Positions 2-6,394 of a DNA stretch of 34,582 bases are shown in pieces. Positions within the stretch are counted from its first letter, which is position 1. Every line of letters begins with the position of its first letter. The translations under genes were made by a program, and so were the position numbers. The notes under the pieces are model-generated. The model had not been told where the DNA came from. It worked only from the letters and a program-made list of their open reading frames with translations, and made no database searches. Source of the DNA: a candidate division FCPU426 bacterium (GTDB taxonomy: Bacteria > Oederibacteriota > Muellerivitia > Muellerivitales > Muellerivitaceae); the NCBI GenBank assembly GCA_027452205.1, contig DAIDGV010000028.1, positions 1-34,582 of the forward strand, given 5' to 3'.

Positions 2-2484
2 GCCACGAACAGCGCCACCAATACGAACACGGATACGGCGACCAACACCTCGACCGATACGGCTACGAACACCGCCACGAACACCGCAACTAATAGCGCG
101 ACTGATACGGATACCAACACGGCAACAGATACGGCGACGGATACGGCGACCAATACCGCCACAAATACGGCGACGAATAGCGCTACAAACACTTCGACCA
201 ATACGGCCACGAACAGCGCCACCAATACGAACACGGATACGGCGACCAACACCTCGACTGATACGGCGACCAACACCGCCACGAACACGGCGACCAATTC
301 AGCCACTAGCACCGATACGGATACCAGTACGGCGACCAATACGGCTACCAATACCGCGACCGACACCGCGACCGACACCGCGACCAACACGGCCACGAAT
401 AGCGCCACCAATACGAGCACGGATACGGCGACCAACACCTCGACCGATACAGCCACGAACACCGCCACCAACACGGCTACCAATTCGGCCACGAACACCG
501 ACACGAATACCGTGACCAATACTCAGACAAACACCTCGACGGATACAGCCACGAATACCGCCACGGATACGTTCACCAATACTTCGACCAATACGGCGAC
601 CAATTCCGCCACGGATACCGCGACCAATACGGCCACTAATACGTCGACGGATACATCGACCGACACCGCCACGAATACGGCTACCAATTCAGCCACGAAC
701 ACCAACACGAACACCGTGACCAATACGCAGACCAATACGCAGACCAATACCGCTACCAATACCGCCACGGATACGGCCACCAATACCTCGACCAATACGG
801 CCACGAACAGCGCTACGGATACCAATACGAATACGGCCACGAACAGCGCTACCGACACTTCGACCAATACGGCCACGAACACGGCTACCAATAGTGCCAC
901 CAATACTGCGACGAATACGGCGACCAATAGCGCCACCGACACCAATACGAATACAGTCACAAATACCGAAACAAACACCGCGACCAATACGGCGACCAAT
1001 ACGGCCACCAACAGCGCGACCAATACCGCGACCAATACGGCAACGAACTCAGCCACCAACACCTCGACCAATACTCCCAGCAGTACTTCCACCGATACTT
1101 CGACCGATACAGCGACGAACACGGCGACCAACTCGGCTACGGCCACTTCGACCAATACAGCCACCAATTCGCCCACGGCTACTTCAACCAACACGGCCAC
1201 CAATACGGCTACTAACAGCGCGACCAATACGGCGACCAATACGGCGACCAACTCAGCAACGGCCACTTCGACCAATACGCCTAGCAGCACTTCCACCAAT
1301 ACTTCGACCGATACAGCCACGAATACGGCCACCAACAGCGCCACTGATACTTCAACCAATACAGCTACCAATTCGCCCACCGCCACTTCGACCAATACCG
1401 CGACTAACACACCTACCAATAGCCCGACGAGCACTTCGACCAATACGGCTACCAACAGCGCCACCAACACGGCGACCCATACGGCTACCAACTCGGCCAC
1501 TGCTACTTCGACCGCTACACCTTCCAGTACTGCCACGAACACGGCAACCCATACCGCCACGAATACGGCAACGAATTCGGAAACCAACACAGCCACACAT
1601 ACCTCCACCAACACGCATACTTCGACTTCGACCAATACCACGACAAACACCGTGACTCATACGGCGACACGTACTTCGACCAATACTCCTACGAATACAA
1701 AGACCTCGACCAGCACCCAGACCCCGACCAATACTGGAACCAATTCGGCCACGGCCAGCAGCACGAATACGCCAACCAATACGAAGACACAGACCAATAC
1801 GCCTACCCCGTCCAGCACAGCCACTAGTACTGCCACCAATAGCGCGACCAACTCCGCCACTAATTCAGCCACGGCGAGCAGCACGAATACGCCGACTAAT
1901 ACTAAGACGCAGACCAATACTCCTACTCCGTCCAGTACGGCCACTAGTACTCCTACCAATAGTGCGACCAATTCCGCCACTAACTCAGCCACGGCGAGCA
2001 GCACGAATACACCGACCAACACCAAGACCGCGACCAGCACTCAAACAGCGACCAATACAACCACCAATAGCGCGACCCGTACCAGCACGGCCACTCCGAC
2101 CAATACGAATACCCAGACCAATACCAACACGCCTATCAACACTAAGACCTCGACCAATACAGCTACCAGCACGGCCACGGTGGCCTCGACCAACACGTTC
2201 ACCAGTACAGCTACGTCGACCGTCACTCATACGGTCACCAGCTCGGCGACGGCCAGGGCTACCAGCACCTCGACCAGCACAGGATTGAGTACGGCCACCA
2301 TGACCGCCACCTCAAGCGCGACGCGGACAGCCACCGATACGGCCACGAATACCGTGACCAAGACGGCCACGAATACCGCTACGACCACGGCGACCCAGAC
2401 CAATACCAACACCCTGGCGATCCCGAATACCCAGACCAGTACGGCTACGGCCACCGAAACCAGTTCGCCGGTGAACACTTGGAC
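2..2484 (+). repeat. Degenerate 12-nt (4-residue) tandem array encoding Thr-x repeats
   Basis: The basic unit is four codons, (Asn/Asp)-(Thr/Ser)-(Ala/Ser/other)-Thr, with occasional two-codon slips that shift the phase by 6 nt. Synonymous Thr, Asn and Ala codons are freely mixed, so the DNA is much less repetitive than the protein. Larger copies are also present: bases 1-55 recur almost exactly at 205-259 (204 nt away, 17 units) and again, with a few changes, from 391. Towards the end the array becomes more varied, with Pro, Lys, Gln, Val, Arg and His replacing some Ala/Asn positions. Confidence 0.95.
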
Positions 2485-2797
2485 GCCGACACCGACGCCG
2501 GGCACCGAAGTATTCCAGATCTGCAAGAACGTCTTCAATATGACGGTGGATACCAGCGTCTGTATCACGGTGGGTAGCAACCAATACCCAGGTATGTTGG
2601 AATTGAAAATCTACAACTCGGCGGGGGAACACATCCGTACGCTTATCGAACAACCAGTATCGGGACCTTTCCCGGTCACCACTTATAACTGGGATGGAAA
2701 GAACAAATACGGTCAACCTGTGGCGAGTGGTGTTTATATCGTGTACTTGATCAAGCCTTATGGCCGACTTTTGGCTAGGTTAGTGGTTGTTCACTAA
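2..2797 (+). CDS. Thr-rich repeat surface protein with C-terminal FlgD-Ig-like domain (5' end outside window)
   Basis: The reading frame is already open at base 2 and runs 931 codons to a TAA, so the true start lies upstream; internal GTG codons such as the one at 512 are not credible starts. About 830 residues are a Thr-dominated array in which Thr or Ser occupies nearly every second position and the others are mostly Asn, Asp, Ala or Ser. The last ~100 residues are ordinary globular sequence with YNSAGEHIRTL, a Y-x-W-D-G-K-N-K-Y-G turn and ASGVYIVY, which resembles the FlgD Ig-like fold found at the C-termini of many secreted bacterial proteins. Nearly the same domain ends the next gene. 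I infer an exported stalk-like protein, probably O-glycosylated or extended, with the end domain serving in anchoring or sorting. The N-terminal head is unknown because it is not in the window. There is no enzymatic motif in the visible part. Confidence 0.85.
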   Translation, partial: ATNSATNTNTDTATNTSTDTATNTATNTATNSATDTDTNTATDTATDTATNTATNTATNSATNTSTNTATNSATNTNTDTATNTSTDTATNTATNTATNSATSTDTDTSTATNTATNTATDTATDTATNTATNSATNTSTDTATNTSTDTATNTATNTATNSATNTDTNTVTNTQTNTSTDTATNTATDTFTNTSTNTATNSATDTATNTATNTSTDTSTDTATNTATNSATNTNTNTVTNTQTNTQTNTATNTATDTATNTSTNTATNSATDTNTNTATNSATDTSTNTATNTATNSATNTATNTATNSATDTNTNTVTNTETNTATNTATNTATNSATNTATNTATNSATNTSTNTPSSTSTDTSTDTATNTATNSATATSTNTATNSPTATSTNTATNTATNSATNTATNTATNSATATSTNTPSSTSTNTSTDTATNTATNSATDTSTNTATNSPTATSTNTATNTPTNSPTSTSTNTATNSATNTATHTATNSATATSTATPSSTATNTATHTATNTATNSETNTATHTSTNTHTSTSTNTTTNTVTHTATRTSTNTPTNTKTSTSTQTPTNTGTNSATASSTNTPTNTKTQTNTPTPSSTATSTATNSATNSATNSATASSTNTPTNTKTQTNTPTPSSTATSTPTNSATNSATNSATASSTNTPTNTKTATSTQTATNTTTNSATRTSTATPTNTNTQTNTNTPINTKTSTNTATSTATVASTNTFTSTATSTVTHTVTSSATARATSTSTSTGLSTATMTATSSATRTATDTATNTVTKTATNTATTTATQTNTNTLAIPNTQTSTATATETSSPVNTWTPTPTPGTEVFQICKNVFNMTVDTSVCITVGSNQYPGMLELKIYNSAGEHIRTLIEQPVSGPFPVTTYNWDGKNKYGQPVASGVYIVYLIKPYGRLLARLVVVH
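1754..2035 (+). repeat. 120-nt (40-residue) higher-order repeat, two full copies and part of a third
   Basis: Copies begin at 1754, 1874 and 1994, exactly 120 nt apart. Each starts with codons for A-S-S-T-N-T-P-T-N-T-K-T and continues through a T-P-T-P-S-S-T segment to three N-S-A-T units. The first two copies differ mostly at third codon positions (one Ala/Pro exchange), and the third diverges after about 14 codons. Confidence 0.9.
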
Positions 2798-2834
2798 TAC
2801 ATTTAAGGGAATAGACGTTATTAGTGGCTTAAAA

Positions 2835-2846
2835 GCAAACGTTTGC
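2835..2846. promoter_or_regulatory. Perfect 12-bp palindrome, candidate LacI/GalR-family operator
   Basis: GCAAACGTTTGC is a perfect palindrome with a central CG. It matches the core form of LacI/GalR-family operators such as PurR boxes. It lies 38 nt after the first stalk-protein gene and 221 nt before the start of the second. No regulator gene is visible in the window, so the assignment rests on the site alone. Confidence 0.4.
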
Positions 2847-2975
2847 AATTTTAGGGGAAAGGTTTGTTGAATCGTTACATTTAAATGACGACTTATTGAT
2901 ATTAAAAACTGACCAAATCTAGTTTACTTATCCTTGAGGTTAAGCGTTTACAACCATCCTCTACCCACACCGCTA

Positions 2976-2985
2976 AAAACGTTTT
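2976..2985. promoter_or_regulatory. Second AACGTT-core palindrome upstream of the stalk-protein gene
   Basis: AAAACGTTTT is a perfect 10-bp palindrome whose central eight bases are the same as those in the palindrome at 2835-2846. It lies 82 nt before the start codon of the next gene. It is AT-rich and could occur by chance in this region. Confidence 0.25.
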
Positions 2986-3067
2986 AAACATAAAAGCCCT
3001 TTCGCGACTCAGCATGTGTTGACGCACTTTTGGGATCAAAAGGGGATGGAATAAGGACAGGCTCAAA

Positions 3068-6000
3068 ATGTTTTTTTTGCCGAAACAAAAAAAACGAATT
3101 CATAAACCATGGCTTAGCCTCTGCGTGGCTTTTTTCATATATATAGCGATGCCGTCAAAGTCTTGGTCCGACTTTGATATGACCTTTGTGATCCCTCAAG
3201 CCAATTGGGGTGGACCGCCCATTACGATCACGAACCGCCAACCCGCCCAAGGGACCGCAAACTATCTTTGGAATGATGATGTTTTTGATGTGGTGGCAGT
3301 GGGATTCAATACGACTTCGACCACAACGTCGCCTGCCACATTTGATACTCTTTCAACCGATATGTATGGAGGGAAGCAATATCGTTTCCCAATTCTCTAT
3401 GCAACGATCAATATCAATCCGGGAGCTACCGGTAACACGAGCGCTGGCGGGGTCAACTCCAGTTTGACCGGTAATCTCGCATACCCACAATTCCCACACA
3501 TTGTAGTCCGTGAAAAACCCGCATGGGGGCCGCTGTATCCGGATACTACTACCTACGCACCACCGGTAAATGCAACGGATATTAATGCCGCTACCGGGGC
3601 TTTGAGCAATGCCGATTATTATAATCCTGCCGCTTGGGTCGCGCATGATGATGCTCCCTTAACGGTTGTTACGACAGGCGCCACGGCCCAGCATCCAACG
3701 CAGCTTTGGATAGGTATGCCCATCATGCCCAAGAACACAATGGTCAACGATAGCGCCTGTAATTGTAATGATTATCCCGGGGTTATGGCCATGCAGGTAA
3801 CTAATGCTTTAGGCATTCAATTCATGCCGAATAACTTGACCGGTCTGAGCGGTCCCGCTTATACGCCTACGAATGGTGCCGTGGCTCCAGCGGGTTTAAT
3901 GTGGGTCATGTCAGCTGCTTGGGTGCAGGAATTCACTGGGTACAATATGCGTGTTCCCCTGGTTATAGGTTCACGTGAAACTGGAATGGGGCTTTTTTAT
4001 CAAGGCGATGCGGGACAGGGTTTCCCCGATGGCACCTATGCAGGATCGAATCAAGCTTCTGTTGGAACTTTTGGAGTTCCTTATCAATTTGTGGGTGGCG
4101 GTCCAGGCGCGGATGGGACGGATTCCATTACGGGCTTCCCTGATTATTGGACCCAAGCCAATGCGAATTTTGTTCCCTATGGAAACGCCGCAAACGCACC
4201 TGGTAATTATGGAATTATTACCCACACCATAGCTTTGATCTGTGACCTTTCCAGCCGTTACTACAATTATTTCGCTTCAGCCCGAAGCTTGAAGCTAAAC
4301 CAACTAGCAGCCTCTTCAAGAGATCCCTATTTGTTATTGAAAACGGTTGCCTATGGTTATAACCAAGGGCCTTATACCGGTAATATTTGGTTAATGGGTT
4401 GCGGAAATGCCCACCGGACAACAGCCATTAATTCAACCAATGTTGCGGTTTCCAATGGTATTACGGGTTTCTCCAGCTATGCCTCAACGGTTTCAGATCT
4501 GTCCCGCCGGATCGGTCGAGATACGACGGTTTATGACTGGGGTATCACCTGGGGCGACGTGCTTTCGTTCCTGAACGATCTTCGCACAAATAATTTCGCA
4601 AACGGTGTACCCTCCAACGCGGACTGGACATCAATGACAAATGAATTGCAAACCGCTTTCAATGCGATGGCGGGGAAATCCCCGAATGTCCTTTCCGACG
4701 GCACAATGGTCGGGCCCACTCGGATCAGCTTTCGTTACAATTGGCTTACGATGCTTCGGATCATGAAAAAATGGCTTCCGCAACCCCGGATGTATTTGGC
4801 AAAAGGGGAGGATATGAACGACCAGATCGGGAATTACGGCGGGTATGACTCGACTGCGACAGCTTTTACGTCTTCTACGGAAAGCTCACCCACTTTGTGC
4901 AGCGCTAATCATCTTGCGCCGGAGATCTATTGGACCAACCCCGCTTATGCCGCTCCTTGGCCCACCCAATCCTTCGCGCCGATCACGATCTGCAATACCT
5001 CGCCGATCCCACTGGCCGCGGACGTGAAATATTACAACGATGATAGTACGTCCTTGACCGTTCGCTGGGCTTTGTCGCCTGGGGATCCGACGGCGGGCGG
5101 TTACTCCATTTGGCATGATGCCTTTAAGACAGGCGGGATCATAGGGGATATAGCGACCCAACTTACCGATTGGAGCAATTTGGCTGCTGGTGGAGCGGGA
5201 GCGGTAGCGGGTTCCACGCATTACACTGGTTCGGTGCCTGTGGCGGGCATTACAGGATTGCGTCGCATTTATATGGATGCCGATGACGGTGATGGGTTCA
5301 GGACCATTAGTTGGGTGGATGTTTATTTGAAGTCTTGCGTAGTCTCGACCAATACGATGACCGCTACTAATACGAACACCCAGACCCAGACAGCCACCAA
5401 TACACCCACGATGACCCAGACTAACACAAACAGCCCCACGCCCAGCCCGACCAATAGTAGTACCAACACATCGACGGTCACCAATACTGTAACATCTTCG
5501 CCGACCGCCACGTCGACCGATAGCCCCACATCAACACCAACGTCGACCAATACAGTCCCTTCGACAAGCACCATGACCCCCACGAATAGCCCGACTGCGA
5601 CCCAAAGTTCCACGTCGACGGCCACGGCGGTCAATAGCTTTACCGCTACCTTGACCTCCACGGTTTCACAAACCGGAACGTCAACGGAAACGGTTACGAT
5701 GACCCCGACACCTTTGGCCAATACTGCTACCAATACCGTTACTACAACTGATACGGCGACCGCCCAATCGACCAGTACCTTTACGGCTACGGTCCAATCC
5801 ACCAATACCCAGACTCTGACCGAAACCGAAACGAATACAGCCACGGCGACCGACAGCTCGACACCTTTGGCGGATACGGCGACCTCAACCGCCACCTCGT
5901 CAGGTACGGCCACCTCTCAAGCGACCAATACTTCCACGCTATCAGCGACAGGGACCGGGACATTTACGCCCACAATGACCTCAACGGCTACCTTACAATC

Positions 6001-6394
6001 CACGGCTACTTCGACTTTGACCGCTACGGCGACCCGTAGATCAACCTCGACCATGACAGCTACCTCGACAGTGCCCTTTACCTTTACGCCGACCTATACC
6101 CCGGTGCCGGATAATTTCTTCATCTCAAAGAACGTGTTCACGCAGGATGGGGGCGTCGAGATCAATGTGGGGATCGATCGGGTTCCAGGTTATTACGATC
6201 TTTCCATCTATAATTCAGCGGGCGAACACATACAAACGTTGGACCATAAATATTTGACCCAGCCTTTTGCCCAAACCTATACATGGAACGGAAAGAACAA
6301 GTATGGGGCTCAGTGCGCGGCCGGGATCTATGTGATCTACGCCACTTATCCTTTTAAACGGCTCTTGGGCCGGGTAGTCTTGTTACACCGCTGA
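3068..6394 (+). CDS. Secreted protein: possible lysozyme-like head, Thr-rich stalk, FlgD-Ig-like C-terminus
   Basis: The product is 1108 residues. ATG at 3068 follows AAGGA by 10 nt. Residues 1-34 form a signal peptide: a basic start, a hydrophobic core around LCVAFFIYIAM, and a likely cut near SKSWS. Residues ~35-755 show no family I can name with certainty. Two motifs recall lysozyme/transglycosylase folds: SRETGMG with Glu304 in the position of the catalytic acid of goose-type lysozymes, and AYGYNQGP at 428-435, like the AYNAGP motif of Slt enzymes. Their 125-residue separation is longer than usual, so this is only suggestive. Residues ~758-1010 are a Thr/Ser/Pro/Ala stalk. Residues ~1015-1108 repeat the end domain of the upstream gene (YNSAGEHIQTL, W-N-G-K-N-K-Y-G, AGIYVIY, and a closing LLGRVVLLHR). 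I infer an exported, surface-held protein, perhaps acting on peptidoglycan or another polymer. Confidence 0.85.
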   Translation: MFFLPKQKKRIHKPWLSLCVAFFIYIAMPSKSWSDFDMTFVIPQANWGGPPITITNRQPAQGTANYLWNDDVFDVVAVGFNTTSTTTSPATFDTLSTDMYGGKQYRFPILYATININPGATGNTSAGGVNSSLTGNLAYPQFPHIVVREKPAWGPLYPDTTTYAPPVNATDINAATGALSNADYYNPAAWVAHDDAPLTVVTTGATAQHPTQLWIGMPIMPKNTMVNDSACNCNDYPGVMAMQVTNALGIQFMPNNLTGLSGPAYTPTNGAVAPAGLMWVMSAAWVQEFTGYNMRVPLVIGSRETGMGLFYQGDAGQGFPDGTYAGSNQASVGTFGVPYQFVGGGPGADGTDSITGFPDYWTQANANFVPYGNAANAPGNYGIITHTIALICDLSSRYYNYFASARSLKLNQLAASSRDPYLLLKTVAYGYNQGPYTGNIWLMGCGNAHRTTAINSTNVAVSNGITGFSSYASTVSDLSRRIGRDTTVYDWGITWGDVLSFLNDLRTNNFANGVPSNADWTSMTNELQTAFNAMAGKSPNVLSDGTMVGPTRISFRYNWLTMLRIMKKWLPQPRMYLAKGEDMNDQIGNYGGYDSTATAFTSSTESSPTLCSANHLAPEIYWTNPAYAAPWPTQSFAPITICNTSPIPLAADVKYYNDDSTSLTVRWALSPGDPTAGGYSIWHDAFKTGGIIGDIATQLTDWSNLAAGGAGAVAGSTHYTGSVPVAGITGLRRIYMDADDGDGFRTISWVDVYLKSCVVSTNTMTATNTNTQTQTATNTPTMTQTNTNSPTPSPTNSSTNTSTVTNTVTSSPTATSTDSPTSTPTSTNTVPSTSTMTPTNSPTATQSSTSTATAVNSFTATLTSTVSQTGTSTETVTMTPTPLANTATNTVTTTDTATAQSTSTFTATVQSTNTQTLTETETNTATATDSSTPLADTATSTATSSGTATSQATNTSTLSATGTGTFTPTMTSTATLQSTATSTLTATATRRSTSTMTATSTVPFTFTPTYTPVPDNFFISKNVFTQDGGVEINVGIDRVPGYYDLSIYNSAGEHIQTLDHKYLTQPFAQTYTWNGKNKYGAQCAAGIYVIYATYPFKRLLGRVVLLHR
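5341..6105 (+). repeat. Thr-rich stalk-coding array
   Basis: This stretch codes for an alternating Thr-x array like that of the upstream gene but shorter (about 255 residues), richer in Ser, Pro, Val and Gln, and with less exact internal repetition. Local duplications are visible, such as two copies of a T-P-L-A-(N/D)-T-A-T segment. Confidence 0.85.

Follow-up and report, generated by a model that had tools for sequence, protein, structure and literature searches.

A probable, divergent type IX-like sorting domain at the C-terminus of stalked proteins in candidate phylum FCPU426

Two stalked genes with a common C-terminal domain

The DNA analysed here, referred to as the window, is a stretch of 34,582 nucleotides that constitutes one whole contig (C28) of an FCPU426 genome of 2.89 Mb (99.4% complete). 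In the NCBI taxonomy, FCPU426 is a candidate phylum whose placement is uncertain. Near the left end of the window lie two forward-strand genes, each containing a threonine-rich stalk followed by a C-terminal domain, hereafter the tag. For gene 1 (2..2797, +), 931 aa of open frame are visible from the contig end onward; because the gene crosses this end, its N-terminus and cargo lie outside the sequence. Its visible part comprises a Thr/Asn/Ala-rich stalk (2..2506, +) of 835 residues (44% T, 16% N, 15% A) and a tag (2507..2794, +) that resembles type IX secretion system (T9SS) C-terminal domains (CTDs), in particular those of the FlgD_ig/PorU/PorZ subclass. Gene 2 (3068..6394, +), a complete frame of 1108 aa, encodes a predicted Sec signal peptide (MFFLPKQKKR...PSKSWS; 3068..3169, +), a cargo region (3170..5335, +), a Thr/Ser-rich stalk (5336..6112, +) of 259 residues (40% T, 15% S), and the tag (6113..6391, +). 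The signal peptide was located by a heuristic hydropathy and cleavage-site scan, with an inferred exact cleavage site. A promoter or terminator pattern was looked for between the two genes, and none was found.

The sequence-only reading of this locus had described two open frames with stalks and a shared end of about 95 residues. Both frames are indeed open, that of gene 1 with its 5' end cut off, a Thr-rich stretch precedes each tag, and the two ends align with 50% identity over 116 residues (E 7e-36). The shared end is real and far beyond chance. The motifs that had been named were located in both tags on the forward strand: YNSAGEHI at 2612-2635 in gene 1 and 6209-6232 in gene 2, GKNKYG inside 2690-2713 and inside 6284-6307, and L-L-(A/G)-R-(L/V)-V at 2768-2785 and 6362-6379, respectively.

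In the window (2-2506) and at a second locus (L074:16868-18208, -), the two contigs break within highly repetitive Thr-Asn stalk DNA, with a near-identical tag behind the break. Assembly probably fails at these repeats, and stalk lengths should therefore be read as lower bounds.

Enzymes of the ChiD type are known from archaea. The cargo of gene 2 matches no Pfam family, and its stretch at 4163-4837 resembles a ChiD-like glycoside hydrolase, as judged from a phmmer match (E 4e-14) to PDB entry 5xsv, which we take to be the archaeal chitinase ChiD and which the PDB itself lists as 'Chitinase'. A paralogue on contig C23 matches the same entry (E 3e-14). ChiD-like cargo within stalked putative surface proteins, with no covering Pfam model, was observed at window:4163-4837 and L076:5497-8610. 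In the chitin degrader Chitinispirillum, glycoside hydrolases that act at the cell surface and bear a Por sorting domain have been described (PMC4814513).

Profile identity of the tag

FlgD is the flagellar hook-cap protein, in which FlgD_ig is a structural domain, and domains of the FlgD_ig type are also found in proteins that bear no relation to secretion. FlgD_ig (PF13860) is the best Pfam match of the tag, which passes its cut-off of 27 bits by a narrow margin (27.3 bits in gene 1, 28.7 in gene 2). Both tags stay below the cut-off of CHU_C (PF13585), the T9SS type B signal, with 16-18 bits versus 27, and the tag of gene 1, which also has PorU and PorZ C-terminal matches, does not pass the T9SS type A model TIGR04183 (13.5 bits versus 23). 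Among 41 tag members, matches at E <= 0.01 were obtained to FlgD_ig in 40, to CHU_C in 36, to the PorU C-terminus in 36, to the PorZ C-terminus in 27, and to Por_Secre_tail/TIGR04183 in 8. A direct alignment also places the tag profile on the PorZ hairpin 'VKWNARGADGNRVASGVY'.

Other CTDs of the window's genome pass TIGR04183, with 34.5, 31.4, 31.2, and 25.2 bits. With these type A domains (TIGR04183/PF18962), the tag shares its terminal position and a G-x-Y followed by a basic hydrophobic last strand, but it lacks the PNP start and falls below the cut-off that its siblings exceed. Unlike the FlgD_ig domain of the hook cap, the tag is strictly C-terminal and resides on secreted stalked proteins. 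Within its CTD subclass, a Cys ahead of ASGVY is common (alignment A2, motif GDxCASGVY); gene 1 and its relative on contig C13 do without this Cys and have two Cys close to the domain start instead.

Predicted fold and essential motifs

The AlphaFold model of the gene 2 tag (mean pLDDT 93.6) consists of seven main strands and a short additional one (15-17), and a small hairpin separates the strands at 59-65 and 78-85. Among the Ig-like folds that it matches in Foldseek searches are those of PorZ (E 3.7e-4), PorU, and FlgD; the TM-scores are moderate (0.5-0.6), and the rank-one match is an unrelated peptidase fibril. This confident model predicts a T9SS CTD topology with a hairpin of the PorU/PorZ type.

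T9SS CTDs form a 3+4 sandwich in which two motifs are experimentally essential for export: one is the strand 3-4 loop, with a single conserved Gly at which strand 4 begins, and the other is the C-terminal end, or 'motif C-t.' (Open Biology 2024, PMC11285876). In PorU and PorZ, whose CTDs are not cleaved, an additional hairpin follows strand 5 (PMC11285876). In the tag, YNSAGEHI, with its invariant Gly, lies across the junction between the strands at 33-41 and 46-55 (alignment and AlphaFold model), WDGKNKYG is the hairpin of the model, and the end (..R-V/L-V/L-V/L-H/R), a closing basic strand, corresponds to the position of 'motif C-t.'. The motifs of the sequence-only reading thus fall on known T9SS elements. 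Its view that the tag ends differently from type IX signals is not supported, since the end matches 'motif C-t.' and both fold and HMM point to a PorZ/PorU/FlgD-type domain. Compared with the features described for T9SS cargo (PMC11285876), the tag possesses the Gly motif between strands 3 and 4, the conserved C-terminal motif, and an Ig-like CTD at the extreme C-terminus.

The closest counterparts are the non-cleaved CTDs of Porphyromonas gingivalis PorU and PorZ. Like the tag, they are Ig-like sandwiches of seven strands in which strand 5 is followed by an extra hairpin, for which a common pattern can be written (W-x-G/A-x-x-x-x-G-x-x-V-A-S-G-V-Y), and they share the conserved Gly in the strand 3-4 loop and the C-terminal end that is essential in T9SS CTDs. 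However, PorU and PorZ are proteins of the attachment complex, whereas the tag is found on cargo proteins with long Thr-rich stalks, and sequence identity is low.

Distribution, terminal position, and exchange of tags

Five proteins of the window's genome carry a close version of the tag (E 2e-35 or better), two of them encoded on C28 and the others on C13, C18, and C23. Genomes of the same family have 2-16 tag proteins each, and a tag match at E 1e-10 was found in 23 of the 39 genomes searched, nearly all of which belong to FCPU426. The cargo of the carriers falls into many unrelated groups, and the tag end occurs on unrelated cargo both in the window's genome and in 16 of the 25 FCPU426 genera searched. 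All confident matches lie at the C-terminus, with alignments that end 0-19, nearly always 0-2, and mostly 0-1 residues before the stop. When the FlgD_ig frames of the window's genome are considered, the match lies within 23 residues of the stop in 27/32; four more have upstream copies followed by a terminal motif of the same kind, and one is a real exception. A signal-peptide-like N-terminus is present in gene 2 and in nearly all complete carriers, as assessed by a simple, heuristic hydropathy rule. The earlier proposal of a sorting or anchoring tag is supported by these data: the domain is neither confined to two paralogues nor located in mid-protein positions, and occurs on many proteins with diverse cargo, always terminally and nearly always together with a signal peptide, in a genome that has secretion genes.

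Two paralogues on contig C18 (L075:6270-8927 and L075:12475-14928, -), of 886 and 818 residues, illustrate the exchange of tags. Their cargo is 45% identical (E 4e-117), and their CTDs are 21% identical: one protein carries the window's tag and the other a CTD of the 'ANGLYY...KVLVLK' subclass. For the cargo of the C18 paralogue, no match was obtained in Pfam or the PDB. Judged by its sequences, the pair represents a natural tag swap, as would be expected of exchangeable sorting modules.

In 24-29% of the signal-peptide proteins of the window's family (L074-L123 and the window), Gln comes right behind the cleavage site given by a heuristic predictor, compared with 3% in other FCPU426 families and a background of 3-4%. 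This position resembles the Bacteroidetes 'Q-rule', which has been reported as specific to Bacteroidetes (PMC5837995). The JAJPJW01 records (L163, L167, L169, L174, and L177) are labelled 'Proteobacteria bacterium', group in the same family as FCPU426 genomes, and are probably mislabelled.

Secretion machinery in the genome and the phylum

The window's genome encodes a divergent SprA/Sov translocon, which barely exceeds the cut-off of TIGR04189 (203.3 bits versus 200). SprA was detected in 34 of the 39 genomes searched (nearly all FCPU426) and in no control genome. PorV-family proteins (NF033709) are present in 39/39; the window's genome has ten copies, the best of which scores 167.2 bits against a cut-off of 90. 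With the Pfam PorV model (PF19572), the score stays below the cut-off (20 bits versus 27). SprA/Sov and PorV, known from Flavobacterium and Porphyromonas, are thus both found here by curated models, but the FCPU426 SprA is divergent, the PorV family is represented tenfold, and the window's family has no C25 sortase. The idea that the tag defines a separate pathway is not supported, as ordinary T9SS type A CTDs occur in this genome alongside SprA and PorV-family proteins.

Peptidase_C25/PorU (PF01364) gave no match in the family of the window's genome and is present in four other FCPU426 genomes. Among the partners anticipated for the tag, signal peptides, SprA, and PorV-family proteins were found, whereas profile searches for PorP, GldL, and GldM gave no match. 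As the GldM model gave no match in Bacteroidota genomes either, absence of the motor cannot be deduced from this result, and the argument that a T9SS is excluded for want of a motor was not accepted. The genes ahead of SprA in other families were examined for possible motor parts and set aside; the protein of one has a chemoreceptor-type signalling domain, and that of the other is weakly DUF3108-like.

In the window's genome and at most related loci, the gene right after SprA encodes a large CTD protein or its homologue truncated at a contig end; some FCPU426 families have a ComF-like gene in this place instead. The CTD protein of about 1500 residues follows SprA in most FCPU426 families (L085:8578-13089 and L085:13086-19169, -), a difference from Bacteroidota, where no such protein after SprA is known to us. 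In the window's family, a LytTR response regulator lies ahead of SprA, and a LytS-type kinase is adjacent in relatives. The ~1500-residue protein and the LytTR regulator are candidates for a new T9SS component and a regulator, respectively. PorV-family genes adjoin tag genes on the same strand at four loci of other FCPU426 families and at one locus of the window's family.

Export route and alternative explanations

We conclude that the tag, both real and widespread, belongs with the C-terminal sorting domains of T9SS as a divergent subclass. Very probably, the two genes encode stalked surface proteins exported through a T9SS-like SprA/PorV route in FCPU426, with the shared ~95 residues as the sorting domain. 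In F. johnsoniae structures, the CTD is bound inside SprA to loops of PorV and leaves together with PorV by a side opening (PMC10994853), and the same mechanism is proposed here by homology. Tagged proteins would cross the inner membrane by means of the signal peptide; in the periplasm, a PorV-family carrier would recognise the terminal Ig-like domain inside the SprA barrel, and the protein would exit by the side opening of SprA. The Thr-rich stalk may then keep the cargo, in gene 2 the ChiD-like glycoside hydrolase, at a distance from the surface. The tag would probably be retained and the protein displayed while attached to its carrier, given that the hairpin is of the PorU/PorZ kind and no canonical PorU peptidase was found in the family. 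Retention is the least certain step of this mechanism; a hairpin grafted onto RgpB did not stop cleavage (PMC11285876), so the hairpin by itself is no proof of it. Transport and recognition, too, we infer.

Several observations count against export by a SprA/PorV route: the tag fails TIGR04183, C25 is missing from the family, PorP, GldL, and GldM gave no match (the GldM search being uninformative), SprA is divergent and close to its cut-off, FlgD_ig-type domains occur outside secretion as well, and the Foldseek TM-scores are moderate, with an unrelated protein ranked first. A rival reading is a purely structural role, in which the Ig-like tip of stalked secreted proteins would be a folding cap or binding module without a sorting function, and export would take another route. 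That FlgD_ig, a structural part of the flagellar hook cap, is the best Pfam match speaks for such a role, and so do the proteins that have FlgD_ig-like repeats upstream of the last copy. We nevertheless regard it as improbable, since the domain is strictly terminal, to the last residue, co-occurs with SprA, and is linked to SprA and PorV-family genes, while sibling CTDs pass the T9SS model and one cargo is common to different tag subclasses.

Even less probable, in our judgement quite unlikely, is a separate pathway that merely looks like a T9SS, with the divergent SprA and FadL-like proteins serving other ends and different machinery reading the tag. The want of a canonical PorU in the window's family and of matches to GldL, GldM, and PorP would fit it, but SprA exceeds an equivalog cut-off, PorV_fam lies far above its own, and absence of the motor is not established by an HMM that failed in Bacteroidota genomes as well. 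That the shared end is a functionally meaningless remnant of recent tandem duplication could be suggested by the adjacency of the genes and the 50% identity of their tags; the same end on unrelated cargo, in this genome and across genera, contradicts this reading and leaves it virtually no probability. A novel tag unrelated to T9SS was rejected in view of the HMM, fold, and translocon evidence, and an anchor for a Gram-positive-type sortase was set aside, these C-termini having no LPXTG motif.

Occurrence beyond FCPU426

According to a 2024 paper, a T9SS is possible in several FCB phyla and absent elsewhere (PMC11285876), and no report of a T9SS in FCPU426 was found in the part of the literature covered. 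The kind of pathway is already known; what is new is the divergent CTD subclass and the phylum. SprA, PorV-family proteins, and CTD cargo in FCPU426, together with SprA in Elusimicrobia and Poribacteria, would widen the range of the T9SS past FCB. They would also serve as a natural experiment on whether sortase, motor, or carriers are truly required, and would allow the surface proteins of an uncultured phylum to be listed by sequence alone. A more far-reaching and rather doubtful proposal is that FCPU426, and probably Elusimicrobia and Poribacteria as well, possess a reduced T9SS in which SprA works with numerous PorV-type carriers and with a hairpin-type CTD that is not cleaved, without a C25 sortase. 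Each cargo would then stay bound to its own carrier, sorting and anchoring would be a single step, and the system would extend well beyond Bacteroidota and FCB.

Outside FCPU426, 18 genomes chosen for having a similar domain were compared with 14 control genomes. The former comprised Bacteroidota, Chlorobiota, Ignavibacteria, Caldithrix, Marinimicrobia, KSB1, Zixibacteria, Latescibacterota, Cloacimonadota, Eisenbacteria, WOR-3, Poribacteria, Elusimicrobia, and one genome labelled Caldisericaceae. SprA was found in 18/18 of the genomes so chosen (above the cut-off in 14/18) and in 0/14 controls, and a profile built from FCPU426 SprA in return detects all 18 of these non-FCPU426 genomes.
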